Positions 1,830-26,789 of a DNA stretch of 37,387 nucleotides are shown here, piece by piece; position 1 is the stretch's first letter, and the number at the start of each line of letters is the position of its first letter. Location: contig CAJTIT010000023.1 in NCBI GenBank assembly GCA_910576345.1, positions 1 to 37,387 of the forward strand, read 5' to 3'. The notes under the pieces were generated by a model. The model was given only the letters and a program-made list of their open reading frames with translations, made no database searches and was not told the DNA's origin. Origin of the DNA: Erysipelotrichales bacterium. Lineage in GTDB: Bacteria > Bacillota_I > Bacilli_A > Erysipelotrichales > Erysipelotrichaceae. The position numbers were made by a program, and so were the translations under genes.

Positions 1830-4061
1830 ATGAAAAAATTATTTATAATAGTGCTATTGTTAGCGTATTTAGCCACAATACCAACGCATGCTGCTCAAGA
1901 TTTTACAAAATCAAATGATTTTAAAGAAACTGCTGTTACGAATGTAAAAGCTGTTTCAACCGGAACCACATCAATTAAATTGACTTGGAATAAGTCAGAT
2001 GGTGCAGAAGGATATTTGATTTATAGACAAATCGGTAAGGGTTCTTATAAGTATCGTGGAATGGTAAGGGGAAATGCTACAACATCGTATACCGATACAT
2101 CAGCACAAACAGGAGAATATAACTTTTACTGGGTATTTCCTTATCGTTATGAAAATGATAAGATGGTAGTCGGAAAAGCGGCTCCATATAAGTACGCAAT
2201 GCCAATACCAGCATCTGTAACTGGTTTAAAAGCTGTAAGCAATGGTGTAAAATCTGTGAAACTTAGCTGGAATGCCGTATCTAATGTTGATGGTTATATT
2301 ATTTATCGTCAAATCGAAAATGGAAAGTTTGAATATCGATATAGTGTTTCCAATACAGGCTTTATTGATAACACTGCACAAACTGGTGTGTACAATTACT
2401 ACCGTATTTATCCTTATAAAATGGTAAATGGAAAACGTATAGTTGGTAAATCAAATCAATATGTTTACAGTAAACCAGTTCCGAAGCCTGTTACAAACTT
2501 AAAAATTGCAAGGAATACCAATAGAGGTTTAACGCTAAGTTGGACAAAAAGTGATGATGTGGATGGTTATATTATTTATCATCAAAATGAATTCGAAGGC
2601 AAATTTTCCTATTTGGGTATGACGTCTAATCTTTATTATAATCATAATAATATTTATGATGCAGATTATCATTTTTATCGTGTTTATGCTTATAAGAATG
2701 TTAGCGGAAAACGTTTGGTAAGTGGATCAACTACTTATGTATATGGAAAAGCAAATAATGCTTCTAATTATAATTCTTCCGTTCCTACAATAAGCATTTC
2801 GCTGAATAAGTCAACCCTAACAATGGAAACGGATACGACAGAAGCGCTACTGGTAAATTTTCATCCTAGCAATACTTCACAGAATAAGCATGTGTATTGG
2901 GGTTCAAGTGACTATAAAATAGTTTCGGTTGACAATAAAGGTGTTCTAACAGCACGTCGCAAAGGAACCGCTACAATTACAGTACAGTCTGTTACAGGAT
3001 TTAAAGCGCAATGTAAAGTAACTGTTGTTGAATATCCAAAAGCAGGTACTTCTAATGGATTTAAGCTATATACCTACAGTAGTGCCGATACCGTAAAGAA
3101 ATTGACGGACAACAGTCGTAACAGTGATGGAACCAATACCTATAATATTGAGTTCTTAACGAACGGCAATGAAACTTGGATCAATGAATCTGTTACGTTT
3201 GAAATTACGGACGTAACGCCCAATGCATACAGAAACATGTATGCACAGATGGGTTATCCATCAGAAGCAATCACATATGAAATAAATTCTGCGGCAGACC
3301 ATTTAGATTATTATCATTCAACTGTTCTGGAGAGTTTTACGAACGCAGGTCCTGGCCAAAGTAATGTAGAAGCAAAAAGTGGTAAAATAATCACAGTAAA
3401 AGCAGGAATGAGTACGCGTGCATTAAAAGTTGTCGCAAAAGCAAATGGAAAGATTTTAGATACTGTATATGTTGGCAGCACTGGAAAAGATGAAAATGGG
3501 GAATACTCTAAACAGGATGAAGCGCTCTACAAAAAGGTAAGACAAAAAGTGGAAAGTAAATTATGGACATCAAGTATGAGCAATCACGATAAATTGTCTA
3601 TACTTGCTGCTTATATAAATAAAACAACACATTACCCTAATACAGCAGCTTTGGAAAAAGAAAACAATCCAACATTTTGGTCAAATTGGGCAGTAGATGA
3701 TACATTATTATTTTATGATCTTTGCAATGATGTTGTATTAAATCATACGATGGATCTTCAAGGGGGAATCACAACGTGTTACGCTGCACAAATTTTGCTG
3801 AAAGCGGCAGAAGAAGATTTGGGATTAAAGAATTTATATGATTCACAAGAAGATGTGGTGAATAAAGGAGAAGGTGTGTGGTTGGCATTAGGGTCATACA
3901 GTACAAACCCTACCAATCCTTATCATATGACCCTTTGGTATAAAGATGCAAATGAGCGTCAGTATGGTTTAGATGCTCAAGGATTATCATTTAGTGAATC
4001 TTCCAGTAATCTTCCATGTGAAATGCATCATTGTTTGGAACAACTGATTTCATTAAAATAA
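1830..4061 (+). CDS. Secreted surface protein: three FN3-like repeats, Ig-like (Big_2) domain, transglutaminase-like domain
   Basis: 743 residues. A signal peptide (MKKLFIIVLLLAYLATIPTHA) is followed by three ~92-residue FN3-like repeats at about 34-127, 128-219 and 220-308, each with the core W...V.GYIIYRQ and ending in YVY-K. A bacterial Ig-like group 2 domain follows at about 320-400 (LTMETDTTEALLV, GVLTARRKGTATITV). The C-terminal ~150 residues look like a transglutaminase/papain-fold domain with a plausible triad of C650 (GGITTCYAA), H699 (NPYHMTLWY) and D715 (YGLDAQG). Such domains act as surface peptidases or protein cross-linkers. The start has an AAAAGGAG ribosome-binding site. No LPXTG sorting signal is seen, so attachment is probably non-covalent, perhaps through the repeats. 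The exact catalytic activity is not determined. Confidence 0.85.
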   Translation: MKKLFIIVLLLAYLATIPTHAAQDFTKSNDFKETAVTNVKAVSTGTTSIKLTWNKSDGAEGYLIYRQIGKGSYKYRGMVRGNATTSYTDTSAQTGEYNFYWVFPYRYENDKMVVGKAAPYKYAMPIPASVTGLKAVSNGVKSVKLSWNAVSNVDGYIIYRQIENGKFEYRYSVSNTGFIDNTAQTGVYNYYRIYPYKMVNGKRIVGKSNQYVYSKPVPKPVTNLKIARNTNRGLTLSWTKSDDVDGYIIYHQNEFEGKFSYLGMTSNLYYNHNNIYDADYHFYRVYAYKNVSGKRLVSGSTTYVYGKANNASNYNSSVPTISISLNKSTLTMETDTTEALLVNFHPSNTSQNKHVYWGSSDYKIVSVDNKGVLTARRKGTATITVQSVTGFKAQCKVTVVEYPKAGTSNGFKLYTYSSADTVKKLTDNSRNSDGTNTYNIEFLTNGNETWINESVTFEITDVTPNAYRNMYAQMGYPSEAITYEINSAADHLDYYHSTVLESFTNAGPGQSNVEAKSGKIITVKAGMSTRALKVVAKANGKILDTVYVGSTGKDENGEYSKQDEALYKKVRQKVESKLWTSSMSNHDKLSILAAYINKTTHYPNTAALEKENNPTFWSNWAVDDTLLFYDLCNDVVLNHTMDLQGGITTCYAAQILLKAAEEDLGLKNLYDSQEDVVNKGEGVWLALGSYSTNPTNPYHMTLWYKDANERQYGLDAQGLSFSESSSNLPCEMHHCLEQLISLK

Positions 4062-4214: not shown

Positions 4215-4906
4215 AGAATGTTAATAAATACAGTAAAAACCACCAGTTGATTCGATGGTTTTATAATTAAGGTGGTATTGTTAGATTAATTATGAATAAA
4301 GCAAATCATCCATATGTCTATAAAAGTACACTATCTGAGATATAAGTATTCTAACATAGTTTTAGAGGAAAATCTAGGAAAAAATTATGTTTTTGAACTG
4401 AAAAAGCAAATGTAGAAATGTGTACCTTTGTATACAAGAAATTACAAATATGCTTGCTTATCAGTTTTCTATATTGAGAGTATTTACATACACGCATACA
4501 AGAACACGAATGATGGCAAAAGAAAGGAGTTGAATAGATGATGCGATCATCAAATATTATGGAAATATACTGTTAAGCAATAAGAAAGAATAAATGATGG
4601 TGATACTATTGAACTGCTATGGTATTTTTTTCATTTCAATCTTTGTTTAGGATGAGCTAGTGTATTTGAAGAATGGAAATAAGATATGCCTGAAGATGAA
4701 ATTGTTTCAGCAATTAGATAGTAGAAATACGTTTTCATATCAACCAATGTATAAGTTAAATCGTTTTGAGCTTTAAATAAGATAGCCATTATCATTTTCA
4801 ATGAACTTATTACAGAGTATTACAACTTTTATGCTAATAAGGACAGGCATGTATTTTAATGTACCGTAGTGTGGTAATCTCAATCAAAGAAAAGAAGGTA
4901 GGTAGC
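4215..4906. other. Long non-coding or decayed stretch between surface protein genes
   Basis: About 690 bases with no convincing gene. It holds only very short open frames, for example a 41-codon frame ending at about 4776 with no recognised similarity. A small hairpin potential (AAAACCA...TGGTTTT) lies near 4236-4263. High AT content and scattered stops suggest decayed accessory DNA plus the promoter of the downstream gene. Confidence 0.4.
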
Positions 4907-7255
4907 ATGAGGAAAAAGATATTGTGTGGATTTATAGTATTGCTTATTGGAAGTATGCCCTTTTCAGAATTTTATGCTGTTTATGCAAAGGAGCAAAAAC
5001 AATTCAGTGACTTAAAAGATAGCATCAGCATGAATAATACAAATGAATTACAGACGCAAGTTCCATTATGGGACAATGAAACTCCTAAGACTGGTGATGG
5101 ATTTACGTTTCAAAATTATGAAAATGGTATTGAGATAACAGGCTATCAAGGGAATGAAACGCATGTGGTGATCCCATCAACAATTAATGGTAAGAAAGTA
5201 ATTAGCATTGGTGTCAGTGCATTTGGTGGAGCATTTTTAGGTATGAAAAGCATTACTTTACCATCTAGTTTGGTATCGATTAAAAAATGGGCATTTCAAT
5301 CATCTGAACTTACAAGTATACATATTCCTTCAGGGGTTAAAGAAATTGAACCAGGAGCATTTGCTAATTGTGCTAATTTGAAAACAATTACGGTTGATGA
5401 AAAAAATCTTCACTTCATAGCAACTGACAATGTTTTGTATAGTAAAAATATGAAGCAATTATATTATCATCCAGTTATGGAAAAGATTCAAGTATTACAA
5501 GGAGTAGAAGAAATAATAGGTGGAGCTTTTACCAACAGAGAAATTTATAGTATTACGCTGCCATCGAGCTTAAAAGTGATAGGAAATGACGCTTTTCATG
5601 GTTGTTTTGATTTATCGACTATTCAAATTCCAGAAGGCGTTGTTTCAATAGGAGAAAATGCGTTCTTTTCTAGCCCTAATTTAAATACGATCCAATTACC
5701 AGAAAGTTTAATGAGTATTGGTGAAGATGCATTTATGGGAACAGCCCTTACAGAAATCTATATACCAAGAAATGTTAAAACGATAGGTCATAGTGTATTT
5801 CGAGGATGCAGTGAATTAAAAACAATTACCGTGCATAAAGATAATTCTTTCTTTACGTCATTGAATAATGTTTTATATAGTAAAGATAAACAAATTTTAT
5901 ATTATCACCCTGCAAAAGAGAATATCAAAGTCATTCCAGGTGTTAAAGAAATATATGGTGGGGCTTTTAGTAATACCGGAATTATAAGTGTTTCTCTTCC
6001 TGAAGGATTACAGACGATCGGTGATTATGCATTTGATCGGTGCAGTTCTTTAGAAAGTATCGATATTCCAGATAGTGTAACCTTTATTGGCTATGATGCA
6101 TTTTTGTGGAATGATAGTCTTGTAAGTTTAAAACTGCCTGAAAATTTAAAAGAAATAGGGTCTTCAGCATTTGAGGGTTGTTTTCGATTGAAAAGTATAG
6201 TAATACCCAAAAATGTAACAAGAATCGGAGGATTGGCATTTAAGGATTGCTTTCGATTGGAAAGTGTTATTATTTCAGAACAAGTAGAGTTTATAGGAAA
6301 TCAAGCATTTGATCATTGTTTAGAGTTTCAACAATGCTCAAATCTTGTGATTTCTGTTTATAAAGGTTCATATGCTTATGATTATGTAATAGATAATGGT
6401 TTAAATCATAAAGTAATTGGTGTTATTACTATGCGTCCTGTTTCAAATCTTGAAGCATATTCTGTTGGAACGCAATCTGTTCAATTACAATGGGAGGATG
6501 TAAAAAATGCGGATGGATACTTAATTTATCGACAGAATAGTCAAAAAAAATATAGTTATTGTGGTATGAGCAAAACCTCTATTTTTACAGATTCAACGGC
6601 ATTAACTGGTGAGCATAATTTTTATTGGGTTTATCCCTATAAAGAAATCGATGGAAAAAAGGTTGTTGGTAACCCAGGGAAGTATGTTTACGCAACACCG
6701 ATTCCTGCAAGTACAAATAATCTGAAAGCAGTTGCGGATGGAGCAACGGTCAGATTGACATGGGATAAGGTAAATGATGTAGATGGGTATATTATCTATC
6801 GACAGTTGCCTGGTGAAAAAAATATGCGTTATCGTTATACTGTCACAGGAACAGGTTTCATAGATTCTAATGCACAATTGGATGGGTTTAATTTTTATCG
6901 AATATACCCATATAAAAAAGTAAACGGAAAGAACGTAACCGCAATATCCAATCAGTATGTATATGCGAAACCAACATTAACCAATGTAACAAAACTAAAA
7001 GCAGTAGGAAAAGCAAATAAACAAATACAAATTAGCTGGAATAAGTATAGTGGAGCAGATGGATATATTGTATACCGTCAAGATTCCAATACCAAACAAT
7101 TTAAATATAGATTAATGACAAGTTCAACAGGTTTCAACGATACAGTGGAAAAAGCAAATACATATTATTATTACAGAGTATATCCCTATAAGAATGTCAA
7201 TGGAAAACGAGTGATAGGTACTTCCAATACATATGTATATGCGAAATCAAAATAA
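4907..7255 (+). CDS. Secreted BspA-like leucine-rich-repeat protein with three C-terminal FN3-like repeats
   Basis: I choose ATG 4907, which starts MRKKILCGFIVLL and has AGAAGGTAGG just upstream, rather than an upstream in-frame ATG at 4859 that would put 16 polar residues before the signal peptide. The 782-residue protein has a signal peptide. About 420 residues (~65-485) are BspA/LRR_5-type repeats with the pattern L..I.IP..V..IG..AF..C. Three FN3-like repeats run from about 509 to the end, finishing in YVYAKSK. BspA-like proteins commonly mediate adhesion to host or bacterial partners. The FN3 triplet is homologous to that in the neighbouring surface proteins, including the PIPAS linker between repeats one and two. 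No LPXTG motif is present. Confidence 0.87.
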   Translation: MRKKILCGFIVLLIGSMPFSEFYAVYAKEQKQFSDLKDSISMNNTNELQTQVPLWDNETPKTGDGFTFQNYENGIEITGYQGNETHVVIPSTINGKKVISIGVSAFGGAFLGMKSITLPSSLVSIKKWAFQSSELTSIHIPSGVKEIEPGAFANCANLKTITVDEKNLHFIATDNVLYSKNMKQLYYHPVMEKIQVLQGVEEIIGGAFTNREIYSITLPSSLKVIGNDAFHGCFDLSTIQIPEGVVSIGENAFFSSPNLNTIQLPESLMSIGEDAFMGTALTEIYIPRNVKTIGHSVFRGCSELKTITVHKDNSFFTSLNNVLYSKDKQILYYHPAKENIKVIPGVKEIYGGAFSNTGIISVSLPEGLQTIGDYAFDRCSSLESIDIPDSVTFIGYDAFLWNDSLVSLKLPENLKEIGSSAFEGCFRLKSIVIPKNVTRIGGLAFKDCFRLESVIISEQVEFIGNQAFDHCLEFQQCSNLVISVYKGSYAYDYVIDNGLNHKVIGVITMRPVSNLEAYSVGTQSVQLQWEDVKNADGYLIYRQNSQKKYSYCGMSKTSIFTDSTALTGEHNFYWVYPYKEIDGKKVVGNPGKYVYATPIPASTNNLKAVADGATVRLTWDKVNDVDGYIIYRQLPGEKNMRYRYTVTGTGFIDSNAQLDGFNFYRIYPYKKVNGKNVTAISNQYVYAKPTLTNVTKLKAVGKANKQIQISWNKYSGADGYIVYRQDSNTKQFKYRLMTSSTGFNDTVEKANTYYYYRVYPYKNVNGKRVIGTSNTYVYAKSK

Positions 7256-7268: not shown

Positions 7269-7298
7269 AAACAAAGAGAGCAAATTCTCTTTGTTTTT
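7269..7298 (+). terminator. Rho-independent terminator after the LRR surface gene
   Basis: An 11-bp perfect stem, AAACAAAGAGA (7269-7279) with TCTCTTTGTTT (7286-7296), followed by a short T run. It separates the surface gene from the glycan operon. Confidence 0.8.
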
Positions 7299-7364: not shown

Positions 7365-7392
7365 TTGACTTTTGTGGTCAATATGATAAAAT
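7365..7392 (+). promoter_or_regulatory. Promoter of the glycan-modification operon
   Basis: TTGACT (7365-7370), 16-base spacer, TAAAAT (7387-7392). It lies 28 bases before the first gene and after a terminator, the right place to drive 7420-13529. Confidence 0.6.
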
Positions 7393-7419: not shown

Positions 7420-8094
7420 ATGGAGAAAGTTGTAATCTTCGGAATAAGTAATTTTTCAGCCTTAATGAGAAGATATTTAAATAAATATTCAAAATCAGAG
7501 ATAGTTGGTTATACTGTAGATAAAAAGTATATAGATACTCCCTATTTTGACGGTCTGACCGTATACCCATTTGAAGATATAGAGCAAGTATTTTCTCCAG
7601 ATGAGCATAGAATACTCTTGACGATTGGTTATAATAATATGAATGACACTCGGGAAATGATTTATCATGCTTGTAAAGCAAAAGGATATACATTCATCAA
7701 TTTTATCCATCCCACAGCAATTATTGATTGTGATGAAATGGGAGATGCAAATATTTTATTAGAGAACGTTATATTAGCTCCAGGTTCTAAAATTGGTTCA
7801 GGCAATATATGTTTTGGCAATGTTCATATTGCGCATGGGGCTCAATTAGGAAACTATAATTTTTTAAGTTGCAATGTTTTGCTTGGCGGAGAAGCGATCG
7901 TCAGTGATCATTGTTTTCTTGGATTGGGTGCAATAGTTGGTAGTGCAAGGGTTTTGGCTCCATATACATTTTTAGGTATGGAAACTTCTATCAATAACAA
8001 TACTAAACCAAATGAAGTTTATGTTAAAGAAAGAGCTGTTAAACTGGATAAAGATAGCAAGCAGATGATGAAATATTTAGGAAGGTTATCATAA
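7420..8094 (+). CDS. PglD/NeuD-family sugar acyltransferase
   Basis: 224 residues, the usual length of PglD/NeuD-type transferases. An N-terminal Rossmann-like part (KVVIFGISNF, residues 3-12) is followed by a left-handed beta-helix (~95-200) of hexapeptide repeats (HPTAIID, LAPGSKIGSGN, HIAHGAQLGNYNFL). H139 is the likely catalytic base. These enzymes move an acetyl or other acyl group from acyl-CoA to the amino or hydroxyl group of a nucleotide-linked sugar in the cytoplasm. It is the first gene of the operon, with GAAAGAGGG upstream. It ends one base before the ATP-grasp gene, and this pairing suggests both act on the same sugar. The exact substrate is unknown. A 4-amino sugar from the RffA-like transaminase at 15852 is one candidate. 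Confidence 0.8.
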   Translation: MEKVVIFGISNFSALMRRYLNKYSKSEIVGYTVDKKYIDTPYFDGLTVYPFEDIEQVFSPDEHRILLTIGYNNMNDTREMIYHACKAKGYTFINFIHPTAIIDCDEMGDANILLENVILAPGSKIGSGNICFGNVHIAHGAQLGNYNFLSCNVLLGGEAIVSDHCFLGLGAIVGSARVLAPYTFLGMETSINNNTKPNEVYVKERAVKLDKDSKQMMKYLGRLS

Positions 8095-8095
8095 T

Positions 8096-9301
8096 ATGAA
8101 AAGAGTCATGGTCATCGCCGGAGGAAAATGGCAAGTCCCTCTGTTAAAAAAATTAAAATGTATGGGTTTTGAAATTGTTTGCAGCAATTTATATCCAGAT
8201 TCTGTTGGATTTCAATATGCGGATTATTGTGAAGTCGCAGATGTGCGCGATTGGGATAAGAACTTAGATATTGCGAAAAAGTATAAGGTTGATGCGGTAT
8301 TCACTGATCAAAGTGATATTGCTGTTCCTACAGCTGCATATGTATCAGAGCAACTTGGATTACGAACAATTGGAATAAAACTGGCTGAGCTTTTTACAAA
8401 TAAATATTGTATGCGCGAATATTTAAAAGAAAATACTTTTCCATATCCTGAATTTAAGATTTGTAAAGAATTGAATGAAGCGAAACAGTTTTTCATTGAT
8501 TTAAAGCATGATGCAATAATCAAGCCGTTAGATTCGCAATCCAGTAGAGGTATTTATGAAATTCATGTGCTTGAAGATTTAGATAGGTACTTTGATAACA
8601 CAAAAAGCAATTCTAAGGATCAAAGTAGTGTTTTGATTGAACGTTATGTACAAGGAACAGAATTTACTGTAGATGGAATTGTAGTAGATGGTAAGCATCA
8701 TACTTTGGCAATTTCTGAGAAATCTCATTATGATTTTAATCAGAATGTAGCAGATGCGTTATATTTTTCTTATTCAAATGATACTTATGATTATAATGCA
8801 TTGCGTAAACTAAATGATGAAATAATACAATCAACAGGTTTACCTTTTGGATTGACGCATGCAGAATATAAACTAGAAAATGGAACATTCTATCTTATAG
8901 AAATGGCCGCAAGAGGTGGAGGAACAAAAATATCTTCAGATATTGTACCATATATGACAGGAATCGATAATTATGCTTTATGGATCCACTCAGTTTTAGA
9001 TGATAAAATAGAATATCCTATTATTGATTTAGAAGAAATGAAAAAACGTTATATGGTGTTGCAGTTTTTAGATTATCCGGTAGAAGGAAGGAAAATAAAA
9101 GAAATTTGTGGTGTAGAAGATATTAAAGCGCTTGAACAAATCTATGATTTTGGATTAAATATTCAAGCAGGCGATGTGTTAAAAAAGGCGACGGATGATA
9201 GTAACCGCATTGGCTATTATATTGCAAAGGGAAGCTCTGTGGAAGATCTTAAAGAAATCAAAACAAAGGTTATGGAGCGTTTATCCATACGTTTTGAATA
9301 G
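8096..9301 (+). CDS. ATP-grasp ligase
   Basis: 401 residues with an N-terminal pre-ATP-grasp fold (MVIAGGKWQ) and an ATP-grasp domain at about 100-300. Visible features are the lysine in DAIIKPLDSQSSRG (K143), ERYVQGTEFTVDG (E182, E189), and the metal-binding THAEYKL...YLIEMAARGGG segment (E257, E269, R273). ATP-grasp enzymes activate a carboxylate as an acyl-phosphate and join it to an amine, thiol or hydroxyl. It resembles carbamoyl-phosphate-synthase-like ligases found in surface polysaccharide clusters. It sits one base after the acyltransferase and 12 bases before the RraA-like gene, so it is probably translationally coupled. I infer that it joins an amino acid or other carboxylate to a sugar. 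The substrate cannot be read from the sequence. Confidence 0.82.
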   Translation: MKRVMVIAGGKWQVPLLKKLKCMGFEIVCSNLYPDSVGFQYADYCEVADVRDWDKNLDIAKKYKVDAVFTDQSDIAVPTAAYVSEQLGLRTIGIKLAELFTNKYCMREYLKENTFPYPEFKICKELNEAKQFFIDLKHDAIIKPLDSQSSRGIYEIHVLEDLDRYFDNTKSNSKDQSSVLIERYVQGTEFTVDGIVVDGKHHTLAISEKSHYDFNQNVADALYFSYSNDTYDYNALRKLNDEIIQSTGLPFGLTHAEYKLENGTFYLIEMAARGGGTKISSDIVPYMTGIDNYALWIHSVLDDKIEYPIIDLEEMKKRYMVLQFLDYPVEGRKIKEICGVEDIKALEQIYDFGLNIQAGDVLKKATDDSNRIGYYIAKGSSVEDLKEIKTKVMERLSIRFE

Positions 9302-9313
9302 AAAAGAGGATTT

Positions 9314-9964
9314 ATGGAAAATATTAGAGATGAAATTATCAAGACCATTAAAAGGAATCGTATTTCAACAACAGAAGTTGCGGACTGTCTTGGAAAAACA
9401 GGTGTCTTAAAAGGTGCAGATGCAATCAATCGCGGTCATTTTTGTGTCGGACCAATTAAATGGATCTATGCTTACCAAAATTCTAATTGGACGGTTCATG
9501 AACAAGCAAGAGATATCCATGAAGGAGATGTTGTGTTTATTGAAGCATTTGATTGTGAAGACCGTGCAATTATTGGTGAACTCGTTTCAAAATTTATGGT
9601 TTTGTATCAAGGAGCTGTAGCGATAATCTCCAATGCAAGACAAAGAGATGGTAATGATTTAATCAAAGACAATTATCCAATATGGTGCCCTGGCTTTAGC
9701 CCGGTGGGATGCTTTAATATAAAGCCAGAACAGCCGCTTGATGAAACGATTGAAAAAACACATAGAGAGCTGTATGATGGTGCAATTGCGGTATGTGATG
9801 ATTCGGGTGTCGTCATTATTCCTAAAAATCAGTTTCATAAAGAATTCTTAAAAAAATTAGAAGATATTGAACGACAAGAAGATATTTGGTTTGATTGCCT
9901 TGATCGTTTAAAGTGGGATACGTATGATATTGTTTGTTTGAAAAAGTATAAAAATAACAAATAG
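9314..9964 (+). CDS. RraA-family protein (HMG/CHA aldolase-like fold)
   Basis: 216 residues. Family hallmarks are STTEVADCLGKTG near the N-terminus, GELVSKF (88-94), NARQRD with the Arg-Asp pair R111-D112 that binds substrate and metal in RraA-like aldolases, and CDDSGVVIIP (161-170). Known members are 4-hydroxy-4-methyl-2-oxoglutarate or oxaloacetate-type aldolases/decarboxylases, and the RNase E inhibitor RraA. The usual DGxxRD appears here as SNARQRD, a variant at the active site. Being inside a glycan operon argues for a small-molecule lyase that makes or tailors a keto-acid precursor, possibly the carboxylate used by the ATP-grasp enzyme. That role is inference. It has AAAAGAGGA upstream. 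Confidence 0.75.
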   Translation: MENIRDEIIKTIKRNRISTTEVADCLGKTGVLKGADAINRGHFCVGPIKWIYAYQNSNWTVHEQARDIHEGDVVFIEAFDCEDRAIIGELVSKFMVLYQGAVAIISNARQRDGNDLIKDNYPIWCPGFSPVGCFNIKPEQPLDETIEKTHRELYDGAIAVCDDSGVVIIPKNQFHKEFLKKLEDIERQEDIWFDCLDRLKWDTYDIVCLKKYKNNK

Positions 9965-9979
9965 GAATGAGGGATACAT

Positions 9980-10936
9980 ATGGATATATCGTTTGTTATT
10001 CCTTGTTATTGTTCATCGAAGACGATTCATTCCGTTATCAATGAAATTAATGAAACGATGCATAACAAGGAACAATATCGGTATGAAATCATTCTTGTCA
10101 ATGATAATTCTAAAGATGATACTTGGAATATCATCAAGGATTTGGCAGTGCATGATGAGCATATAACAGCGATTGATTTTGCAAAGAATTTTGGTCAGCC
10201 AAGTGCTCTTTTGGCAGGTTTTTCTGTCGCAAAAGGTGATTATATTATGACCTCTGATGATGATGGACAGACACCTGTTGGTATGGTTTGGGATTTCATG
10301 CAAAAGATGGAAGAAGGAAATGATGTTGTATGTGTGAAATATACAGAGCGACATCGCAAGTCTTTATTTCGTTCAATCGGAACCGGATTGAATGCAATGA
10401 TGAGTAATTATATTCTGGAAAAGCCAAAAGATGTTTATTTATCATCCTTTTTTATGGCAAAGCGTTTTGTAATTGATGAAATGGTAAAATATGATAATCC
10501 TTATCCGTATATTGCTGGCCTCTTATTAAGAACAACATCCAAAATAGGTTATATTGAGACTGTACAAAGAGAGCGATTGTCTGGAAGTAGCGGATATAAT
10601 TTTAAGAAACTATTTCATTTATGGGTAAATGGATTTACTGCTTTCTCTATCAAGCCACTGCGTATCTCTATTGTTTTGGGTTTTTTTAGTGTCCTCTGTT
10701 CTATTTTATTTTTGATGTATGTGTTAATAAGAAAATTATTGGTGCCTACGACGCAAATGGGCTATAGTTCTATTATGATAACCATTTTGTTTTTTTCTGG
10801 AATAATATTATGTGTACTAGGAATGATTGGAGAATATGTTGGTAGAATTTATATGTGTATCAATAATGAGCCACAATATGTAATACGTGAAAAATACAAT
10901 AAAAAGGGGATTAAAAATGCTGAAGATAGGAACTAA
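9980..10936 (+). CDS. GT2 polyprenyl-phosphate glycosyltransferase (GtrB/DPM1-like)
   Basis: 318 residues. A GT-A catalytic domain begins SFVIPCYCSS, with LVNDNSKDDTW (39-49), the phosphate-contacting FAKNFGQPSALLAG, and the metal-binding SDDDG (92-96). Two C-terminal membrane segments (~225-254 and ~263-290) hold it on the membrane, as in GtrB/dolichol-phosphate-mannose-synthase-like enzymes. It should transfer a sugar from a nucleotide donor to undecaprenyl phosphate on the inner face. The EmrE-like pair and the GT-C-like protein that follow are the expected flippase and outer-face transferase. Its last 20 bases overlap the next gene. Confidence 0.85.
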   Translation: MDISFVIPCYCSSKTIHSVINEINETMHNKEQYRYEIILVNDNSKDDTWNIIKDLAVHDEHITAIDFAKNFGQPSALLAGFSVAKGDYIMTSDDDGQTPVGMVWDFMQKMEEGNDVVCVKYTERHRKSLFRSIGTGLNAMMSNYILEKPKDVYLSSFFMAKRFVIDEMVKYDNPYPYIAGLLLRTTSKIGYIETVQRERLSGSSGYNFKKLFHLWVNGFTAFSIKPLRISIVLGFFSVLCSILFLMYVLIRKLLVPTTQMGYSSIMITILFFSGIILCVLGMIGEYVGRIYMCINNEPQYVIREKYNKKGIKNAEDRN

Positions 10937-12815
10937 TCGTAAGAATGCATCAGTTATATTGCAGTACGTATTGATGGCTTTGATATTTTTATGGCCATTT
11001 GTCAATAGTTTTTTTGGTATTGATATGGGAGATACGGGGCTGCATACATTTATGTTCCAAAATTTATATGAAATGCCGGACTTTATTTCTTTTACCTCAT
11101 GGTTTACAACATTTGTTGGACATGTTTGGTTGAAAACATTCCCTTTTTTGGGCTTGTGGGGATTAAACCTATTGGAAATCCTATTAGAAATGTCTATTGT
11201 GATCATCGTATATCAAACATTTAAGCATCATATAAACAAAAACTGTTTGTTAATTGGTTTATTTATTGCAATTTTGACAAGCAATACATATCTAAATGTA
11301 TTCAATTATCATCAGTTTAACGTATTGCTGCTGGTTATACTTATGTGTTTGCAATTTAAGGCAATTACAAAAAATAATGTTAGATTAAGTATATGTGCCG
11401 GATTTGCATTAGGTGTGTTGATCTTTTCCAGAACAGGAAGTGTTACAGCATTTGTAACGTTTGCGTTCTATTTGTTTTGGTTCCTTTTACATGAAAAATA
11501 TCCATTAAAGAAAATGCTGCGGCATATGCTTGGAATGCTAGTAGGTTTCGTGCTTAGTACAATTGTCATGTGCTCGATTTTGATTGGGACAGGGCAAATG
11601 CAATATTTTATTAACAATATTTTTCGTTTAAAAGGACTGGCTACTGCTTCTGAAGGGGGGTATAGTTTATCAATACTGCTTGACTCTTTCTTCAGAGGGA
11701 ATTTGGATGCTATTGAAGCAGGACTTGTGTTTTTTGCAGGTATCGTTGTTGTATTTCTAGCTTCTTTATTCTTTTATCAGTACAATTGGAAAAAGCAAGA
11801 GGTTCGTAAACATTTTATTTTAAATGCGCTTATTGCTCTTGTGTTCTTTATCGTTGGAATTTATACAATGGTATACTCATTCGATGTGAACCCTGCGCCA
11901 GCATGGCCGCAAATGACGACTGGCCCCAGTTTTCTAATTGGTGTCATGTATGTCGCTGCTCTCTTCCGATTTTGTGAATATGTACAAGCAGATAAAGAAA
12001 AAAGTCTAATGGTATTAATTTCTATTTTCTTGCCGATGCTGACAATCGCCGGATCTAATACTGGGACAAAGCATGTGATTATGGGGATGTGGATTATTGC
12101 ACCTGTATTATGTGAGCTTGCTTATGATGCATTCTTAAAGAATTCTTATACCAATGTTTTGAAGATTTATAAAGACCACTGGAAGACAGTTTCTTTAAAA
12201 AAACCATTATTCATAACTTTTTGTATCGCATTGACGATGTTTGCTTTGAAATTGGGTAGTACTGTATATTATACAAATAACTTTGACAGCATCCATCGCT
12301 GGGATATTAAATATGCAATTCATAGTGATAATGCCAAACTGTTGCGAACAACGCAACGACAAGCAATCAATGTGAATGGAGTATTGGATACGGTGCAAAA
12401 AGTAAAGCAGGAATATGGAGAAGATGTTCCCATGTTGGTATATGGAGGTAGTGTATTATTTTATTATTTATCAGATTCTAAATCATATGTACAACCTTGG
12501 ATTACATTGAATACATATCCTCTTGAAAAATTTGAAGAGGATTTGGACAGCGGCAAACATAGATATAATAAGTTACCAGTTATTATATATGGTCGTACTA
12601 ATAATTATTATGGATTTTATGAGCATAATTTTCAAAGCCTTTTGGCAACGCAAATGAGTCAGCGTGATGATGGAAAAAAGGAAGTGTTCTCTCAATTCTT
12701 AATTGATCATGATTATGGATGTGTATTTGAAAGTGAATATTATGTTGTGTTCTATGCGGGTGTTGGAGGAAATGAAGAATCTGAAAGTTATATACAATCA
12801 ATTTTGGGTTTATAA
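10917..12815 (+). CDS. Polytopic membrane protein, probable GT-C-fold glycosyltransferase
   Basis: 632 residues from ATG 10917, which has AAAAAGGGGA just upstream; an in-frame ATG at 10887 lacks such a site. About 11-12 hydrophobic segments run through residues ~12-460, followed by a ~170-residue soluble C-terminal part predicted outside. The first loop has an acidic DMGD (36-39), consistent with the catalytic first-loop Asp of GT-C enzymes, which use lipid-phosphate sugars on the outer face. No specific family was recognised, so the assignment rests on topology, the acidic loop and context next to a GtrB-like enzyme and a flippase pair. A Wzy-like polymerase is an alternative. It overlaps the GT2 gene by 20 bases. 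Confidence 0.6.
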   Translation: MLKIGTNRKNASVILQYVLMALIFLWPFVNSFFGIDMGDTGLHTFMFQNLYEMPDFISFTSWFTTFVGHVWLKTFPFLGLWGLNLLEILLEMSIVIIVYQTFKHHINKNCLLIGLFIAILTSNTYLNVFNYHQFNVLLLVILMCLQFKAITKNNVRLSICAGFALGVLIFSRTGSVTAFVTFAFYLFWFLLHEKYPLKKMLRHMLGMLVGFVLSTIVMCSILIGTGQMQYFINNIFRLKGLATASEGGYSLSILLDSFFRGNLDAIEAGLVFFAGIVVVFLASLFFYQYNWKKQEVRKHFILNALIALVFFIVGIYTMVYSFDVNPAPAWPQMTTGPSFLIGVMYVAALFRFCEYVQADKEKSLMVLISIFLPMLTIAGSNTGTKHVIMGMWIIAPVLCELAYDAFLKNSYTNVLKIYKDHWKTVSLKKPLFITFCIALTMFALKLGSTVYYTNNFDSIHRWDIKYAIHSDNAKLLRTTQRQAINVNGVLDTVQKVKQEYGEDVPMLVYGGSVLFYYLSDSKSYVQPWITLNTYPLEKFEEDLDSGKHRYNKLPVIIYGRTNNYYGFYEHNFQSLLATQMSQRDDGKKEVFSQFLIDHDYGCVFESEYYVVFYAGVGGNEESESYIQSILGL

Positions 12816-12838
12816 CATTGGGAAAAGAGGAATGAACA

Positions 12839-13198
12839 GTGAAGCATAAAATTGATATAAAAAAAATCATAATGCTACAAGTAATCGTATTTATTTATTC
12901 TATCGGCAGTGTGTTATCTAAAGTAGCATCTAGTCAAATGAAAGAGAGCGGTATTTTCTCCTTTCAGTTTATTGGATTGTTATTTTGTATGATTATGATA
13001 TTGGCTTTTTATGCTCTTTTTTGGCAGAAACTGTTGAAAACCACGGATCTTACCATCGCATATGCCAATAAAGGTATGGTTTTGTTTTGGTCGTTGTTAT
13101 GGTCTGTTCTTTTATTTCACGAAGCAGTAACAATATTCAATGTATTAGGAATTGTGCTTATTATTATAGGAATACTGGTGGTGACTGGAAATGATTAA
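12839..13198 (+). CDS. EmrE/ArnE-like small membrane protein (half flippase)
   Basis: 119 residues with four membrane segments and a GTG start preceded by AAAAGAGG. The pattern (SIGSVLSKVAS in helix 1, FHEAVTIFNVLGIVLIIIGILVV at the end) fits the EamA/SMR superfamily. Members such as ArnE/ArnF work as pairs to flip undecaprenyl-phosphate sugars. It overlaps the following related gene by eight bases, so the two are surely co-translated. Proposed role: one half of a heterodimer moving the GT2 product across the membrane. Drug efflux is the alternative, but the context favours lipid-sugar flipping. Confidence 0.75.
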   Translation: MKHKIDIKKIIMLQVIVFIYSIGSVLSKVASSQMKESGIFSFQFIGLLFCMIMILAFYALFWQKLLKTTDLTIAYANKGMVLFWSLLWSVLLFHEAVTIFNVLGIVLIIIGILVVTGND

Positions 13199-13529
13199 TA
13201 TATATGCATTTCTAATGGTCTTTAATGCGTTTTTAACCGCAGTTTCTCAGTTATTATTAAAGAAAAGTGCTAATCAAACACATAATAATAAGCTGCAGGA
13301 ATTTTTAAATATACGTGTAATATTGGGATATGGTATCCTATTTTCAACGTTCTTGTTAAATATAGTGGCATATCGTGGTATTGAATATAAATATGGGCCA
13401 ATTTTAAACTCTACTAGTTATGCATTTGTATTGCTTCTTGGAGGCTTGATTTTGAAAGAAAAAATTACCCTCAAGAAAATCACGGGAATGATGCTGATTA
13501 TTAGTGGCATTATTATATTTAGTCTTTGA
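13191..13529 (+). CDS. EmrE/ArnF-like small membrane protein (partner half flippase)
   Basis: 112 residues and four membrane segments. Helix 1 has AFLTAVSQLLLKKSA and the C-terminal helices have GGLILKEKITLKKITGMMLIISGIIIF, a typical SMR/EamA ending. It starts inside the end of the previous gene (ATG 13191, with GGTGGTGACTGG upstream). Two unequal, tandem SMR-like genes usually make a heterodimer of opposite topology. In this operon the likely cargo is undecaprenyl-phosphate-linked sugar. It is the last gene before the third surface protein, only 28 bases away. Confidence 0.76.
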   Translation: MINIYAFLMVFNAFLTAVSQLLLKKSANQTHNNKLQEFLNIRVILGYGILFSTFLLNIVAYRGIEYKYGPILNSTSYAFVLLLGGLILKEKITLKKITGMMLIISGIIIFSL

Positions 13530-13557: not shown

Positions 13558-15657
13558 ATGAAAGTATTAAAAAAAGTTGGCGTTTGCGCATTATGTTTTT
13601 CCATGTTATTGCCATACACTGTTCAAGCTAGTGGGCAAAGAACTAGTGTAAATAAAGAAACAAATGCAGCGAAGGCAAGTTCTACAGGATGGATAGACCA
13701 AAACGGCTTTCGGTTTTACATTGATTCGAAAACCGGAAAAAAATTAACTGGTTTTCAAACCATTGAGAATAAGAAATATTATTTTTATCCGAGTTCTGGC
13801 GCAGCATTAAAGGGCTATCAAAAAATTGATGGTAAAGAGTATTATTTTGATGAAACTACGTATGCGCAAAAAACAGGAATTATCGAAATCACATATGGAA
13901 GTAAAAAACAGAAGCACTACTTCCTTCCACAAGGTGGTTTAGGTACAGGATGGCAGAAGGTTGGAAATGACAAATACTACTTTTCTTCTCCTGAGAGTGG
14001 ATACGTAATGTTAACAGGAGCACAGAAGATTGATGGTATTATTTATTATTTTGATGCCAATGGGAAACTATCTGAAGGTGTTTATAAAAACAATAAAGGA
14101 CAAGCATATTATTATACAAAAGCTGGCGGTGTAAAAATGGGTTTGCAAGAATGGAAAGGTGACTTATATTTTTGCAAAGAATCAAAATCAGGTGAAATAC
14201 AATATGGATTACAATCAATAGGCAAGAATCTGTATTATTTTGATCCTGTTACTGGGGCAGCAAGGAAAAATCAAGATATTAACTTCTCTCATATGATTTT
14301 TACAATTGGCAAAAATGGTGTTATAACAAGTGTAAAAGCTGAGGAAGGTTATGAAAATAGTATTCGATCACAGTTGATATTAAATGGAATGGAATTATTA
14401 GGAGAACCATATTCTTTTGATAGAAATGAGGGTTATGCCTGCGGTTATTTCGTTGATATCGTATATCATAGTGTCGGTATTACATCGATTAAGGGTTCAT
14501 CTGATCAACAGGCGAAGGCTATTGTAGAAGATGGCGCTGGAACGTTGATTAAGAAAGAAGAACTTCGACCAGGTGATTTGGTATTTTGGATTTTAAAGAA
14601 TTGTGATGATCCAGATTGCACGCATTGGAATGAAGTACATCATGTTGGCATCTATCTGGGAAATGATAAGATGTTAGAGGCTAGTGAGCCAAGAGGCGGC
14701 GTTGTAATTCAAGATATACATTCTTTTGACATGTTCGAAATTTCTCATTATGCAAGAGTGATTGATGATGATGGTACTTTATATCCTGATGAAAAGGATT
14801 ATATTGAAATACCTCATCATCTAAAGGCTATATCAAATGGAGCAGCTTCTGTTACAGTTACATGGGATTCCACAGAGAATGTAGATGGCTTTGTTGTATA
14901 TCGTATGGGGCCTGGAGAAACAAAGTTTTCTTATAGAACCATGTTTGCTGATTCTAAAAAACGAAGCTTTACAGATACAAATCTTCAGTTTGGAGGATTT
15001 TATTATTATCGTATATATGGATTTAAATACGATGAAAATGGAAAAATGGTATTTAGCAAAAGTGGTGGCAGTAAAAACTATGTATGGGTAAAAACGCAAA
15101 TCCCAGGAGTGAAAAATTTAAAAGCAACAGCAAAAACTTATAACAGCGTTCAGTTGGATTGGGACAGTGTTGCAGGAGTCGATGGATATATTATTTATCG
15201 TAAAGTTGGTAAAGGTGACTTTGCATATCGATATCTTGTAAAAGGAACTTCATTCTTAGATACTACTGCATTAACTGGAGAGATTAATTATTATCGAGTA
15301 TATCCATACAAAGAAATCAACGGTAAAAAAGAAACAGGCGCTTCTTTGAGTTATGTATATCAAAAACCACTTCCTGAAGCAGTAACAGGCTTGAAGGCAC
15401 AGACCAATTCATCAGGAAGAGGTATTCGTGTAACGTGGAATGCTACTAAAACTTCATATGATGGATATGCAATTTATTGTCAAATACCTGGAGAAACAAA
15501 AATGTCATTTATGACAGTTACAAAAAACACTTCTTTTGTTGATGGTAAAGCAAACACAAGGGCTCATTATTTCTATCGTATCTATGCGTATAAAACGGTG
15601 AATGGAAAACAAATTTTTGGCCCATCATTAAATTATGTATATGCAACAGGAAAATAA
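13558..15657 (+). CDS. Secreted NlpC/P60 wall hydrolase with choline-binding-like repeats and three FN3-like repeats
   Basis: Start chosen at ATG 13558 (AAAAGGAGAA upstream, then signal peptide MKVLKKVGVCALCFSMLLPY); an upstream TTG would add 18 odd residues. 699 residues. At ~44-240 there are glucan/choline-binding-type repeats (GWI..NGFRFY, KLTGFQTI..KKYYF, GYQKIDGKEYYFD). At ~270-403 is an NlpC/P60 domain with C295 (YACGYFVDIV) and H362 (HHVGIYLG), the expected endopeptidase residues that cut peptidoglycan stem peptides. At ~420-699 are three FN3-like repeats ending YVYATGK. The wall-binding repeats suggest non-covalent attachment to wall polymer. Lying 28 bases after the flippase pair, it may be read from the glycan operon promoter. 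Confidence 0.87.
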   Translation: MKVLKKVGVCALCFSMLLPYTVQASGQRTSVNKETNAAKASSTGWIDQNGFRFYIDSKTGKKLTGFQTIENKKYYFYPSSGAALKGYQKIDGKEYYFDETTYAQKTGIIEITYGSKKQKHYFLPQGGLGTGWQKVGNDKYYFSSPESGYVMLTGAQKIDGIIYYFDANGKLSEGVYKNNKGQAYYYTKAGGVKMGLQEWKGDLYFCKESKSGEIQYGLQSIGKNLYYFDPVTGAARKNQDINFSHMIFTIGKNGVITSVKAEEGYENSIRSQLILNGMELLGEPYSFDRNEGYACGYFVDIVYHSVGITSIKGSSDQQAKAIVEDGAGTLIKKEELRPGDLVFWILKNCDDPDCTHWNEVHHVGIYLGNDKMLEASEPRGGVVIQDIHSFDMFEISHYARVIDDDGTLYPDEKDYIEIPHHLKAISNGAASVTVTWDSTENVDGFVVYRMGPGETKFSYRTMFADSKKRSFTDTNLQFGGFYYYRIYGFKYDENGKMVFSKSGGSKNYVWVKTQIPGVKNLKATAKTYNSVQLDWDSVAGVDGYIIYRKVGKGDFAYRYLVKGTSFLDTTALTGEINYYRVYPYKEINGKKETGASLSYVYQKPLPEAVTGLKAQTNSSGRGIRVTWNATKTSYDGYAIYCQIPGETKMSFMTVTKNTSFVDGKANTRAHYFYRIYAYKTVNGKQIFGPSLNYVYATGK

Positions 15658-15820: not shown

Positions 15821-15851
15821 TACAACGTATTTTTTGAATGGAGGATTCCTT

Positions 15852-16979
15852 GTGATAAATTTTAATATTCCGCCGTTTCTAGGTACAGAGATGGAACATA
15901 TAGGTAAAGCAATCAGAAACCATAAGATTTGTGGGGATGGAGAATATACAAAAAAATGCAATCAATGGATGGAAGAAAAGTTTCATGCAAAGAAAGCTCT
16001 GCTTACTACTTCTTGTACGCATGCATTAGAAATGGCCGCAATCTTGTCAGATATTCAACAGGGTGATGAAGTGATAATGCCTTCTTATACATTTGTATCC
16101 ACTGCAGATGCATTTGTTATGCGTGGAGCGAAGATCATCTTTGTTGACATCCGACCGGAAACGATGAATTTAAATGAAGATTTAATTGCATCCGCAATTA
16201 CAGAAAAAACAAAAGCTATTGTTCCGGTTCATTATGCGGGTGTTTCTTGCGATATGGATAAGATCAATGCAATTGCACAAAAGCATCAATTGATGGTTGT
16301 GGAAGATGCTGCACAAGGTGTTATGTCAAAATATAAAGGTCAGTATTTAGGAACATTGAGCGATTATGGGTGCTATAGCTTTCATGAAACAAAAAATTAT
16401 AGTATGGGTGAAGGCGGAGCATTGCTAATTAAAGATGCAAATGATATTGAAAAAGCAGAAATTATACGAGAAAAAGGAACCAATCGAAGCAAATTCTTTC
16501 GAGGTCAAATTGACAAGTACACTTGGGTGGATTATGGTTCGTCTTATTTGCCAAGTGATATGAATGCTGCATATTTATATGCGCAACTGTTGGAAGCGGA
16601 TAAGATTTTTGATGATCGTATGAATTCATGGAATTATTATTATGAGCATTTAGAGGATCTTCAAAATCATATAGATTTACCTTATATACCAGAATATTGT
16701 GAACATAATGCACACATGTTCTATATAAAAGCAAAAGACTTAAATGAGCGTTCTGAGTTGATCGCATTTTTGAAAGAAAAAGAAATTGGAGCAGTATTTC
16801 ATTATATTCCTTTACATAGTTCTCCTGCTGGCAAAAAATTTGGCATTTTCCACGGAGAGGATATTTATACTACAAAAGAAAGTGAGCGGCTTGTGCGTTT
16901 ACCGATGTATTATGGATTACGACAGGATGAGCAAGACATCGTAATTGATGCATTACATCAATTCTATTATAATAAGTAA
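15852..16979 (+). CDS. wecE: dTDP-4-amino-4,6-dideoxygalactose transaminase (RffA/WecE type)
   Basis: Start chosen at GTG 15852 with a perfect GGAGG seven bases upstream (15840-15844). 375 residues, normal for the DegT/DnrJ/EryC1/StrS family. Close matches to the RffA signature are SCTHALEMAA, GDEVIMPSYTFVSTADAF, VHYAGVSCDMD, VVEDAAQGV (D152 contacts the PLP ring nitrogen) and SFHETKNYSMGEGGAL, where K181 forms the PLP aldimine. The enzyme converts a dTDP-4-keto-6-deoxyhexose plus glutamate to the 4-amino sugar (dTDP-Fuc4N). No dTDP-glucose pathway genes are in the window. The acyltransferase and ATP-grasp genes upstream could modify the amino group it installs. Confidence 0.85.
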   Translation: MINFNIPPFLGTEMEHIGKAIRNHKICGDGEYTKKCNQWMEEKFHAKKALLTTSCTHALEMAAILSDIQQGDEVIMPSYTFVSTADAFVMRGAKIIFVDIRPETMNLNEDLIASAITEKTKAIVPVHYAGVSCDMDKINAIAQKHQLMVVEDAAQGVMSKYKGQYLGTLSDYGCYSFHETKNYSMGEGGALLIKDANDIEKAEIIREKGTNRSKFFRGQIDKYTWVDYGSSYLPSDMNAAYLYAQLLEADKIFDDRMNSWNYYYEHLEDLQNHIDLPYIPEYCEHNAHMFYIKAKDLNERSELIAFLKEKEIGAVFHYIPLHSSPAGKKFGIFHGEDIYTTKESERLVRLPMYYGLRQDEQDIVIDALHQFYYNK

Positions 16980-17035: not shown

Positions 17036-17755
17036 TTACTTCAATTTTTGATTAACTCTGATTTGAATGGTACTTGGGCTATATCCGGCTTTCTTCAATC
17101 GACTGATACGATTTTTTCCATTTCCCCATTTGCCTAAAATCACTTCATCCGCTAATTGATCAATAGTTTTTGATAGTTTCGATACATTATCATTAATTTT
17201 CTGATTCACAATGGCTTGTATCGCATCATAATCATAGCCTGCTGAAATCAACCTGCTTTTTCGCTCACTCCCATTTCCCCATAATCCTTCTATGACTTCT
17301 TGTGCTAGTTCTTCATTCGTTTTTCGTGTACTTTGGATACTCCATGCTTTGAAATGCAAGACTCCAATAATTCCATGGGTTGATATACTGCCTTCATTCC
17401 CATATGCTTTTCCAAATTGATTTTGTCCAAATGCCATGACTCTATTCACACCATCCATACGGATAAACATGGCTACATGACTATCTGGGCAATCATGAGA
17501 GCCTTTGCTCCATACGATCCAATCTCCATATTGTGCATTGCTTAAAGACACCAACGTAAAATATGCATTAAGTCCCAATGGCTGATAACGTTTCACGATC
17601 TCTTCCGCATAACCAGAACCACCCAGTGCGAATGGTTTCATGCCTGCCAAATAACATACCTGCTTAAACAAATCAACGCATTGTGCGCCATAGGCACCAT
17701 CGACATCAATTGCTTTTCCTAAATATTGGTTTCTGAATTCTTGTGCTGTAATCAT
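17036..17755 (-). CDS. Phage-type endolysin: CHAP domain plus two Cpl-7 wall-binding repeats
   Basis: 239 residues. A CHAP amidase/endopeptidase domain occupies about 1-140 with C26 (GAYGAQCVDLF) and H93 (PDSHVAMFI). Two Cpl-7 (CW_7) repeats follow at about 147-187 and 199-237 (LAQEVIEGLWGNG, LADEVILGKWGNG). It cleaves peptidoglycan from within after holin action, releasing the particles. Its start overlaps the stop of the preceding gene (ATGA). It is the last gene of the tail and lysis operon. It has no signal peptide, so it depends on the holin. It looks fully intact. Confidence 0.92.
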   Translation of the reverse strand: MITAQEFRNQYLGKAIDVDGAYGAQCVDLFKQVCYLAGMKPFALGGSGYAEEIVKRYQPLGLNAYFTLVSLSNAQYGDWIVWSKGSHDCPDSHVAMFIRMDGVNRVMAFGQNQFGKAYGNEGSISTHGIIGVLHFKAWSIQSTRKTNEELAQEVIEGLWGNGSERKSRLISAGYDYDAIQAIVNQKINDNVSKLSKTIDQLADEVILGKWGNGKNRISRLKKAGYSPSTIQIRVNQKLK

Positions 17756-18069
17756 CCTTCACCATCTCCTTTCTCGACATCACGAATGGGCAAAAGATGA
17801 ACTTCTTTGTCCATACCATCAATCATTCCATTTCCGCCAAGACCTTTGTAAGCTTGAAACATCTCAACCCAGTTTTGAAGAGCATAAGATGGTATGATTT
17901 GAAGTTTCATATACAAATCATGGTATTCCATCAATTTCACACGCAACAAACACTTCGTCCCTTCACTGTTTGCATTTCTGGCATGTGCTTGTTCTTTCAA
18001 CAAGCAGATGATATAACCAAGAATGACAGGAAGAGCAATCGTATAAGTGGTCATGAGAAACGTATTCAT
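17752..18069 (-). CDS. Phage lysis-module membrane protein (holin-like or small structural)
   Basis: 105 residues: one N-terminal membrane segment (TTYTIALPVILGYIICLL), then a charged soluble part ending in LGGNGMIDGMDKEVH. This type of small protein is frequent between tail-fibre and lysin genes of Firmicute siphophages. A second holin or a spanin-like accessory is possible, but no function is established. Four-base ATGA overlaps on both sides place it in the lysis cassette. Confidence 0.65.
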   Translation of the reverse strand: MNTFLMTTYTIALPVILGYIICLLKEQAHARNANSEGTKCLLRVKLMEYHDLYMKLQIIPSYALQNWVEMFQAYKGLGGNGMIDGMDKEVHLLPIRDVEKGDGEG

Positions 18070-18284
18070 AATTCGTACTCCTGTTCTTCACATTCTGGAA
18101 GACCAGCAAAAGATGTCAATAGAGACGCAATGCCAGCGGTTGTTGAAATAGAAAGAATTGCGAGCCAATCAAAATCTGTCAACATATTTCCTATGGTAAT
18201 CAGAGAAACGGCAGTTTGTGCCATGGTTTTGATTGCACGAATACTGGCGCTCTTGACCCAATCTTTTAAATTATGCTTTATCAT
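18066..18284 (-). CDS. Phage holin, r1t-type
   Basis: 72 residues from ATG 18284 (AATAAGAG upstream; an upstream in-frame ATG would overlap the preceding gene by 62 bases). The sequence KDWVKSASIRAIKTMAQTAV, then a membrane segment, then DWLAILSISTTAGIASLLTSFAGLPE is the pattern of r1t-like holins, which have two membrane helices. It forms membrane lesions that let the CHAP endolysin reach the wall at a set time. It directly precedes the lysis-module membrane protein and the endolysin. Confidence 0.8.
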   Translation of the reverse strand: MIKHNLKDWVKSASIRAIKTMAQTAVSLITIGNMLTDFDWLAILSISTTAGIASLLTSFAGLPECEEQEYEL

Positions 18285-18297
18285 TTTTCTCTTATTT

Positions 18298-18672: not shown

Positions 18673-18686
18673 CAATGATCTCCTCC

Positions 18687-24691: not shown

Positions 24692-24696
24692 AAATA

Positions 24697-25421: not shown

Positions 25422-25437
25422 AACTGATTACTCCTTG

Positions 25438-25953: not shown

Positions 25954-25971
25954 AATTGCTTTCATCCTTTC

Positions 25972-26370: not shown

Positions 26371-26481
26371 ATTGTTCACCCTTTCTTTTGATATTGTATC
26401 TGGTTTGCCTTCTATTGATTGGCAAGTATTGGTATGGGTTTTTCTTTTGGTTTCTACATGCTTTCTCTTTTGTGTGAAACG

Positions 26482-26775: not shown

Positions 26776-26789
26776 ACATGTCCTCCCAT

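Follow-up and report, generated by a model that had tools for sequence, protein, structure and literature searches.

A predicted operon for the assembly and export of a decorated amino sugar in an Erysipelotrichales bacterium, and the RraA-like subfamily that it encodes

A gene cluster in the 37,387-nucleotide stretch of Erysipelotrichales DNA analysed here (the window) is proposed to build and export one decorated amino sugar, a reading that is favoured with somewhat better than even confidence. In the proposed pathway, dTDP-4-keto-6-deoxyglucose, supplied by rmlA/rmlB, would be converted to dTDP-Fuc4N or a close isomer by WecE, a step suggested by strong homology, and an RraA-like enzyme would make or trim a small 2-oxo or hydroxy carboxylic acid. 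Family memberships and precedents suggest that an ATP-grasp ligase would activate this acid with ATP and attach it as an amide to the sugar amine, and that a PglD-like acyltransferase would cap a remaining amine or act on the same sugar. Following the logic of the Arn and Pgf systems, a GT2 enzyme would then place the decorated sugar on undecaprenyl phosphate, a pair of SMR proteins would flip it, and a GT-C enzyme would transfer it outside the cell, with a surface protein or a wall polymer as the acceptor.

All seven ORFs of the original prediction are present in tandem on the + strand at 7420..13529 and are tightly spaced (−20 to +23 bp between genes), with a Shine–Dalgarno-like purine-rich stretch before most of them. 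The seven-gene operon thus stands, and the family names given to its products agree with Pfam and NCBIfam. The first gene begins 28 bp downstream of a promoter-like site (TTGACT-16-TG-TAAAAT, 7365..7392, + strand), called, like the terminators, by consensus scan only, with promoter matches overall no commoner than in shuffled sequence; a terminator-like hairpin at 7269-7296 belongs to the preceding BspA-type gene. Past the second SMR gene lies a gene on the + strand (13558..15657) whose secreted product combines an NlpC/P60 domain with repeats of the choline-binding and fn3 types (Pfam). Its ATG at 13558 is only 28 bp past the SMR gene and is preceded by AAGGAG, a good ribosome site, and the consensus scan showed no terminator-like site in the gap, for which reasons the transcription unit probably comprises eight genes. 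The original extent of the unit therefore holds for the seven genes but missed this probable eighth gene as well as the amino-sugar transaminase gene wecE. In sampled scans of the same family and phylum, no close relative of the ATP-grasp ligase was found (best 34% identity), suggesting that the operon is no standard feature of the lineage.

The wecE gene (15834..16979, + strand) encodes a dTDP-4-keto-6-deoxyglucose transaminase of the dTDP-Fuc4N type. The protein scores 628.5 bits against PRK11706 (cut-off 375) and 624 bits against TIGR02379 (cut-off 434.85), vs. 188 bits against the ArnB model, and its closest PDB entry is the WecE-type structure 4piw (531 bits). The presence of this homologue behind the operon suggests that the likely substrate is a 4-amino-4,6-dideoxy sugar. 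A full rmlB (480 bits), adjoined by rmlA, occurs elsewhere in the genome, so dTDP-4-keto-6-deoxyglucose should be available. In another genome of the same genus (G500, locus L073), a GT-C relative (249 bits) directly adjoins a WecE homologue (380 bits), and the remaining genus members searched have distant transaminases only, which ties WecE to the GT-C protein. In the window, wecE is preceded by a promoter-like site of its own (15792), and the surface-protein gene lies between it and the seven genes, an arrangement that was counted against the pathway.

The first gene of the operon (7420..8094, + strand) encodes a PglD/NeuD-like N-acyltransferase with a left-handed beta-helix. It matches the NeuD/PglD-like hexapeptide model TIGR03570 at 1.3e-30, under the cut-off, and the PglD structures 2npo, 2vhe and 3bss at ~1e-8, with a histidine aligned within the PglD catalytic region. 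The second gene (8096..9301, + strand) encodes a carboxylate-amine ligase with ATP-grasp_4 (PF13535) and LAL_C2 (PF18603) domains, i.e., the domain set of L-amino-acid ligases, and L-amino-acid ligases are also its best solved relatives (3vot, 4e-13; BacD, 1.6e-5). The neighbouring genes point to a sugar amine as the predicted substrate. The solved relatives of the ligase and its LAL_C2 domain would also suit a route in which the ligase links a common amino acid to the sugar amine, this amino acid is N-acetylated by the PglD-like enzyme, and the RraA-like protein comes in at a later step, e.g., by decarboxylating the attached group or by processing a side product. The Clostridioides difficile type B flagellin cap is likewise amino-acid based, and one related cluster (G201, L015) contains an ATP-grasp ligase, an acyltransferase and a transaminase without RraA. 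However, the RraA-like protein is conserved much more strongly than the ligases with which it is paired, an acyltransferase is missing from many RraA clusters, and the amino-acid route is considered rather unlikely.

The third gene (9314..9964, + strand) encodes the RraA-like protein, which matches Pfam RraA-like (PF03737) at 9.4e-19 and has the tail motif QEDIWFDCxDR. It reaches only 48 bits against the LigK equivalog TIGR02798 (cut-off 304.5), and no curated NCBIfam family covers it, all matches lying far under the cut-offs. Its AlphaFold2 model (pLDDT 90.6) is closest to the HMG/CHA aldolase 3NOJ (Z 20.5 over 200 residues, 19% identity). Mutagenesis of that aldolase probed Arg40, Asn71, Arg123 and Gly144, and His75 was named in docking (PMC5065237). 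In a sequence alignment, Arg40, Asn71, His75, Arg123 and Gly144 of 3NOJ correspond to K28, N58, H62, R111 and G132 of the RraA-like protein, all invariant or nearly so in the subfamily, and C133 and N135 take the places of Thr145 and Lys147. The catalytic Arg123 of the aldolase and the Asp beside it are represented by R111-D112. This mapping suggests that the pyruvate-enolate pocket is kept and its far side changed, so that the protein may be inferred to be a class II pyruvate-enolate aldolase or decarboxylase. The fold is also that of RraA, and the protein could instead be a non-enzymatic regulator like RraA of E. coli. This is highly improbable, given that the aldolase pocket positions R111, D112 and N58/H62 are invariant or nearly so, and that the RraA regulators match the model with a Z of about 15 only.

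Eight-residue patterns, run in a single scan over ~85,000 species genomes, brought up 25 loci of this subfamily with 45-71% identity. Their hosts belong to Bacillota, Bacteroidota, Cloacimonadota and Pseudomonadota (a Sphingomonadales bin), with one Melainabacteria bin and one archaeal Methanospirillum bin; several are metagenome bins, in which single-contig assignments may be wrong. The alignment of the window protein with 24 of the loci (25 rows) has 40 invariant columns, including R111-D112 and the tail E-x-Q-E-D-I-W-F-D-C-x-D. The subfamily is discrete and apparently undescribed. In random samples, ~370 Clostridia yielded one new match and ~364 Bacteroidota yielded none apart from the centre genomes, showing that the subfamily is rare. 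Scans found neither the RraA-like protein nor the ligase in viral contigs, nor the RraA-like protein in plasmids. The open-licence papers searched contain no description of RraA (or its old name, demethylmenaquinone methyltransferase) paired with ATP-grasp in glycans and no experiment on any subfamily member.

The pairing of RraA with ATP-grasp is strong but not absolute. A relative of the window ligase lies within ~6.5 kb of the RraA gene in 23 of the 25 loci; in a 24th (L025/L070), the two genes share a contig at a distance of ~10 kb. This gives a linkage of 24/25 in a sample selected by similarity. The remaining locus (L040) is on a short contig (4.2 kb) from a bin in which a search for a comparable ligase found none. 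The one new match of the random samples, G552 (locus L078), has a subfamily member beside an FGGY-type kinase and an SDR-like gene, and no comparable ATP-grasp ligase was found in that genome; this case was also counted against the pathway.

The conserved neighbourhood backs three parts of the original prediction, namely that a lipid-linked sugar is made, flipped and transferred, that an amide-forming ATP-grasp ligase and a PglD-like transferase act on an amino sugar, and that the RraA-family enzyme is linked to these genes. One relative (L022) holds RraA, GT2, GT-C, ATP-grasp, acyltransferase and WecE genes. Two others (L023 and L024) carry ATP-grasp, acyltransferase, RraA, GT2, GT-C and RmlB in a row, another (L026) has ATP-grasp, RraA, GT-C, acyltransferase, GT2 and both SMR genes, and L025/L070 combines ATP-grasp, WecE, GT2, RraA and both SMR genes. 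The expected co-occurrence with GT2 and flippase genes holds in part. An ArnC-like GT2 is on the contig in all ten closest RraA loci (L022-L031), often with acyltransferase and GT-C genes, whereas in distant loci RraA and ATP-grasp are mostly apart from GT2/flippase genes, yet within glycan clusters. One of the ten, L027, comes from the culturable Bacterium 0.1xD8-71. In seven loci (L032-L036, L038 and L045), the pair is found with a methyltransferase, an amidohydrolase-like protein and DegT-type transaminases, often with NeuB; in L028-L031, it is found with Wzx-type exporters. The cluster of L032, from Paenibacillus montaniterrae, has the order RmlA, WecE, ATP-grasp, amidohydrolase-like, RraA, methyltransferase. 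These contexts bear on a further alternative, in which the product of the seven genes, or of the first three, is a soluble metabolite, for instance a free dipeptide-like compound, as the resemblance of the ligase to bacilysin-type ligases would allow, and the sugar genes are mere neighbours. In essentially every relative with both genes and readable context, however, ligase and RraA lie in glycan clusters containing transaminases, RmlA/B, NeuB, Wzx or GT genes, and a soluble product is thus improbable.

The decorated-sugar pathway may also be part of a broader pattern. The Bacteroidota/Cloacimonadota ligases group apart from the Bacillota ligases in a maximum-likelihood tree of 35 ATP-grasp rows, on which the RraA label must change at least twice even if only well supported branches are counted (shuffled mean 8.9). 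One Bacteroidota ligase that was measured has 25% identity to the window ligase, and the RraA proteins are >50% identical between Bacteroidota/Cloacimonadota and Bacillota, with 53-58% in Bacteroidota. At least two ligase lineages accompanying a conserved RraA suggest, as the simplest reading of these sequences, that RraA would make a constant acid that different ligases attach to different sugars. This leads us to propose, tentatively and with less than even confidence, that the subfamily consists of biosynthetic pyruvate aldolases dedicated to glycan assembly, whose constant hydroxy-oxo acid would be amide-linked by different ATP-grasp ligases to a variety of amino sugars, of the Fuc4N/Qui4N types as well as nonulosonic acids, across several bacterial phyla. 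In a Treponema flagellar glycan, a nonulosonic acid may carry methylated trihydroxyhexanoic acid. An acid of this kind would suit a pyruvate aldolase product, but this is only a lead.

The remaining four genes are assigned to delivery and would resemble the Arn or Pgf genes in how they work. The fourth gene (9980..10936, + strand) encodes a polyprenyl-phosphate sugar transferase of the GtrB/ArnC/PgfS type, with a Pfam Glycos_transf_2 domain and, by hydropathy, two C-terminal hydrophobic segments. Its best NCBIfam model is PgfS (NF047588, 1.3e-53, 182 bits, below the cut-off of 500), followed among the models compared by ArnC (2.9e-40, under the equivalog cut-off), and it matches the solved structures of the GtrB-like sll0501 (6.6e-35) and ArnC (4.7e-30). 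The two small membrane proteins (12839..13198 and 13191..13529, both + strand), presumed subunits 1 and 2 of an ArnE/F-like flippase, each have four hydrophobic segments by hydropathy and match only EamA in Pfam; their matches to the ArnE/ArnF models are weak (~1e-5, under the equivalog cut-offs). No GtrA-family (PF04138) flippase was found by Pfam among the operon genes.

The fifth gene (10917..12815 from ATG, within a longer ORF from GTG 10887, + strand) encodes the putative GT-C membrane glycosyltransferase, with a weak PMT_2 match (PF13231, 2e-6) and no match to solved structures by profile search. Its AlphaFold2 model, for which five sequences were used, is of low quality (mean pLDDT 56), which was likewise counted against the pathway. 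The 15 best PDB matches to this model by Foldseek are all GT-C enzymes (oligosaccharyltransferases, PglB, AglB and ArnT), separated by a gap in probability from the unrelated rows beneath, with one PMT further down. Oligosaccharyltransferase and PglB entries lead this set and ArnT ranks 13th, an order drawn from a model whose quality is too low to separate the ArnT, PMT and oligosaccharyltransferase branches. In GT-C enzymes, the catalytic acid is located in the first outer loop region, and D36, D39 and H43 of the window protein, near the first predicted outer loop, are kept in five relatives. An ORF from L027 considered for the GT-C set was dropped after alignment.

As for the acceptor, the original prediction of Gtr-type glycosylation of a wall polymer named only one of two possible targets, since the window and three relatives (L023, L024 and L025) have genes for secreted proteins within the cluster or immediately next to it, which makes protein glycosylation a fair possibility. 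One relative (L022) carries a YfhO-like protein, a type known from teichoic-acid glycosylation. By analogy, the acceptor could possibly be either a surface protein, such as the NlpC/P60 protein of the operon, or a wall polymer.

Surface antigens and phage receptors of bacteria are defined by the N-acyl groups of amino sugars, and for many of these groups the responsible enzyme is unknown. A discrete aldolase-like family, paired with amide ligases in hosts that range from Bacteroidota to Bacillota, points to a single acyl building block common to them. If true, this unrecognised building block would characterise a class of sugar modifications of wide occurrence, and genes that now bear only the label RraA family, which alludes to the control of RNA decay, would gain a function.

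Among known systems, Gtr (GtrA/GtrB/GtrC) shares the GtrB-type GT2 with C-terminal membrane segments. The originally proposed logic of a lipid-linked sugar that is made, flipped and transferred is retained, but the window system is not Gtr proper, because its flippase is an EamA, ArnE/F-like pair rather than GtrA. The Arn system, which adds L-Ara4N to lipid A (ArnB, ArnC, ArnE/F, ArnT), shares a DegT-type transaminase, a GT2 acting onto undecaprenyl phosphate, a two-subunit EamA/SMR flippase and a GT-C transferase, the last three as relatives rather than equivalogs. However, Arn uses UDP-Ara4N, whereas the window cluster would use a dTDP-linked 6-deoxy sugar (WecE) and adds the ATP-grasp, RraA and PglD-like genes in a low-GC Bacillota host presumably without lipid A. 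Because the sugar differs and ArnA and ArnD are absent among the operon genes and WecE, the cluster is not considered a member of Arn.

In Streptococcus mutans, pgfS, pgfM1, pgfE and pgfM2 are co-transcribed with the adhesin gene cnm, and PgfS together with the PMT_2 protein PgfM1 modifies the adhesin Cnm of the same transcript (PMC5856776). The window cluster is similar in its PgfS-like GT2, its PMT_2-type protein and a surface-protein gene in what is probably the same transcription unit, whereas Pgf has an epimerase and lacks the ATP-grasp, RraA and acyltransferase genes and the SMR pair. In C. difficile type B, a mutant of the ATP-grasp_4 gene CDR20291_0245, which is clustered with an FdtB-like transaminase gene, loses the terminal sulfonated peptidyl-amido sugar of flagellin (PMC5207246), and this sugar is Fuc3N acylated by taurinyl-Ala-Gly (PMC5207245). 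The likeness lies in an ATP-grasp_4 gene near a dTDP-sugar transaminase and an amide-capped amino-dideoxyhexose product; the differences are the flagellin acceptor, Fuc3N, the taurine-Ala-Gly cap and the absence of RraA and a lipid carrier from the genes described. The Shewanella SfmA-E operon has an ATP-grasp_4 protein, SfmE, in flagellin glycan synthesis, within an amino-sugar (NeuB-type) operon with a methyltransferase (PMC3765264), but, unlike the window, lacks RraA and lipid-carrier delivery genes. Finally, the HMG/CHA aldolase (LigK/GalC family, 3NOJ, PMC5065237) has its fold and pyruvate-pocket residues in common with the RraA-like protein, whereas its role is catabolic, the two are only ~19% identical, and the RraA subfamily is distinguished by its QEDIWFDC tail.

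Three secreted proteins around the operon, at window positions 1830-4061, 4859-7255 and 13558-15657, have in common fn3-like repeats of the YIIYRQ..YRVYPYK type; one of them also carries BspA leucine-rich repeats and another an NlpC/P60 domain. These three proteins are possible common acceptors of the glycan. Elsewhere in the window, reading of the translations revealed an IS-type, DDE transposase-like ORF at the left end of the contig (665-1585) and, at 28381-30592, a gene resembling polyprenyl glycosylphosphotransferases with a secreted C39-like peptidase next after it. The minus-strand block at 17036-27633 resembles part of a prophage, with apparent tail, holin/lysin and regulator genes, but has no near match among 50,697 phage records.

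Clusters akin to the operon, but lacking RraA, were found in the window's order or family at two loci, L016 (6639-17893) and L018 (3928-11363), which contain a WecE-type transaminase, one to three ATP-grasps, an SMR pair and an ArnC-like GT2. Export of an amide-decorated amino sugar may be commoner than the version with RraA. An orphan member of the RraA subfamily adjoins an FGGY-kinase-like and an SDR-like gene in another genome, G552 (locus L078, 4662-5390).

RraA-like proteins have also been given the old name demethylmenaquinone methyltransferase. According to a review (PMC9614988), the giant virus CroV encodes a fusion, crov266, in which a CMP-sugar synthetase is joined to a domain bearing the annotation demethylmenaquinone methyltransferase.

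In Paenibacillus montaniterrae, RmlA, WecE, ATP-grasp, amidohydrolase-like (PF04909), RraA and methyltransferase genes are consecutive (L032, 6030-11346). In 4,5-cleavage pathways, LigI/LigJ are paired with LigK, and by analogy the amidohydrolase and RraA of this locus would resemble that pairing.
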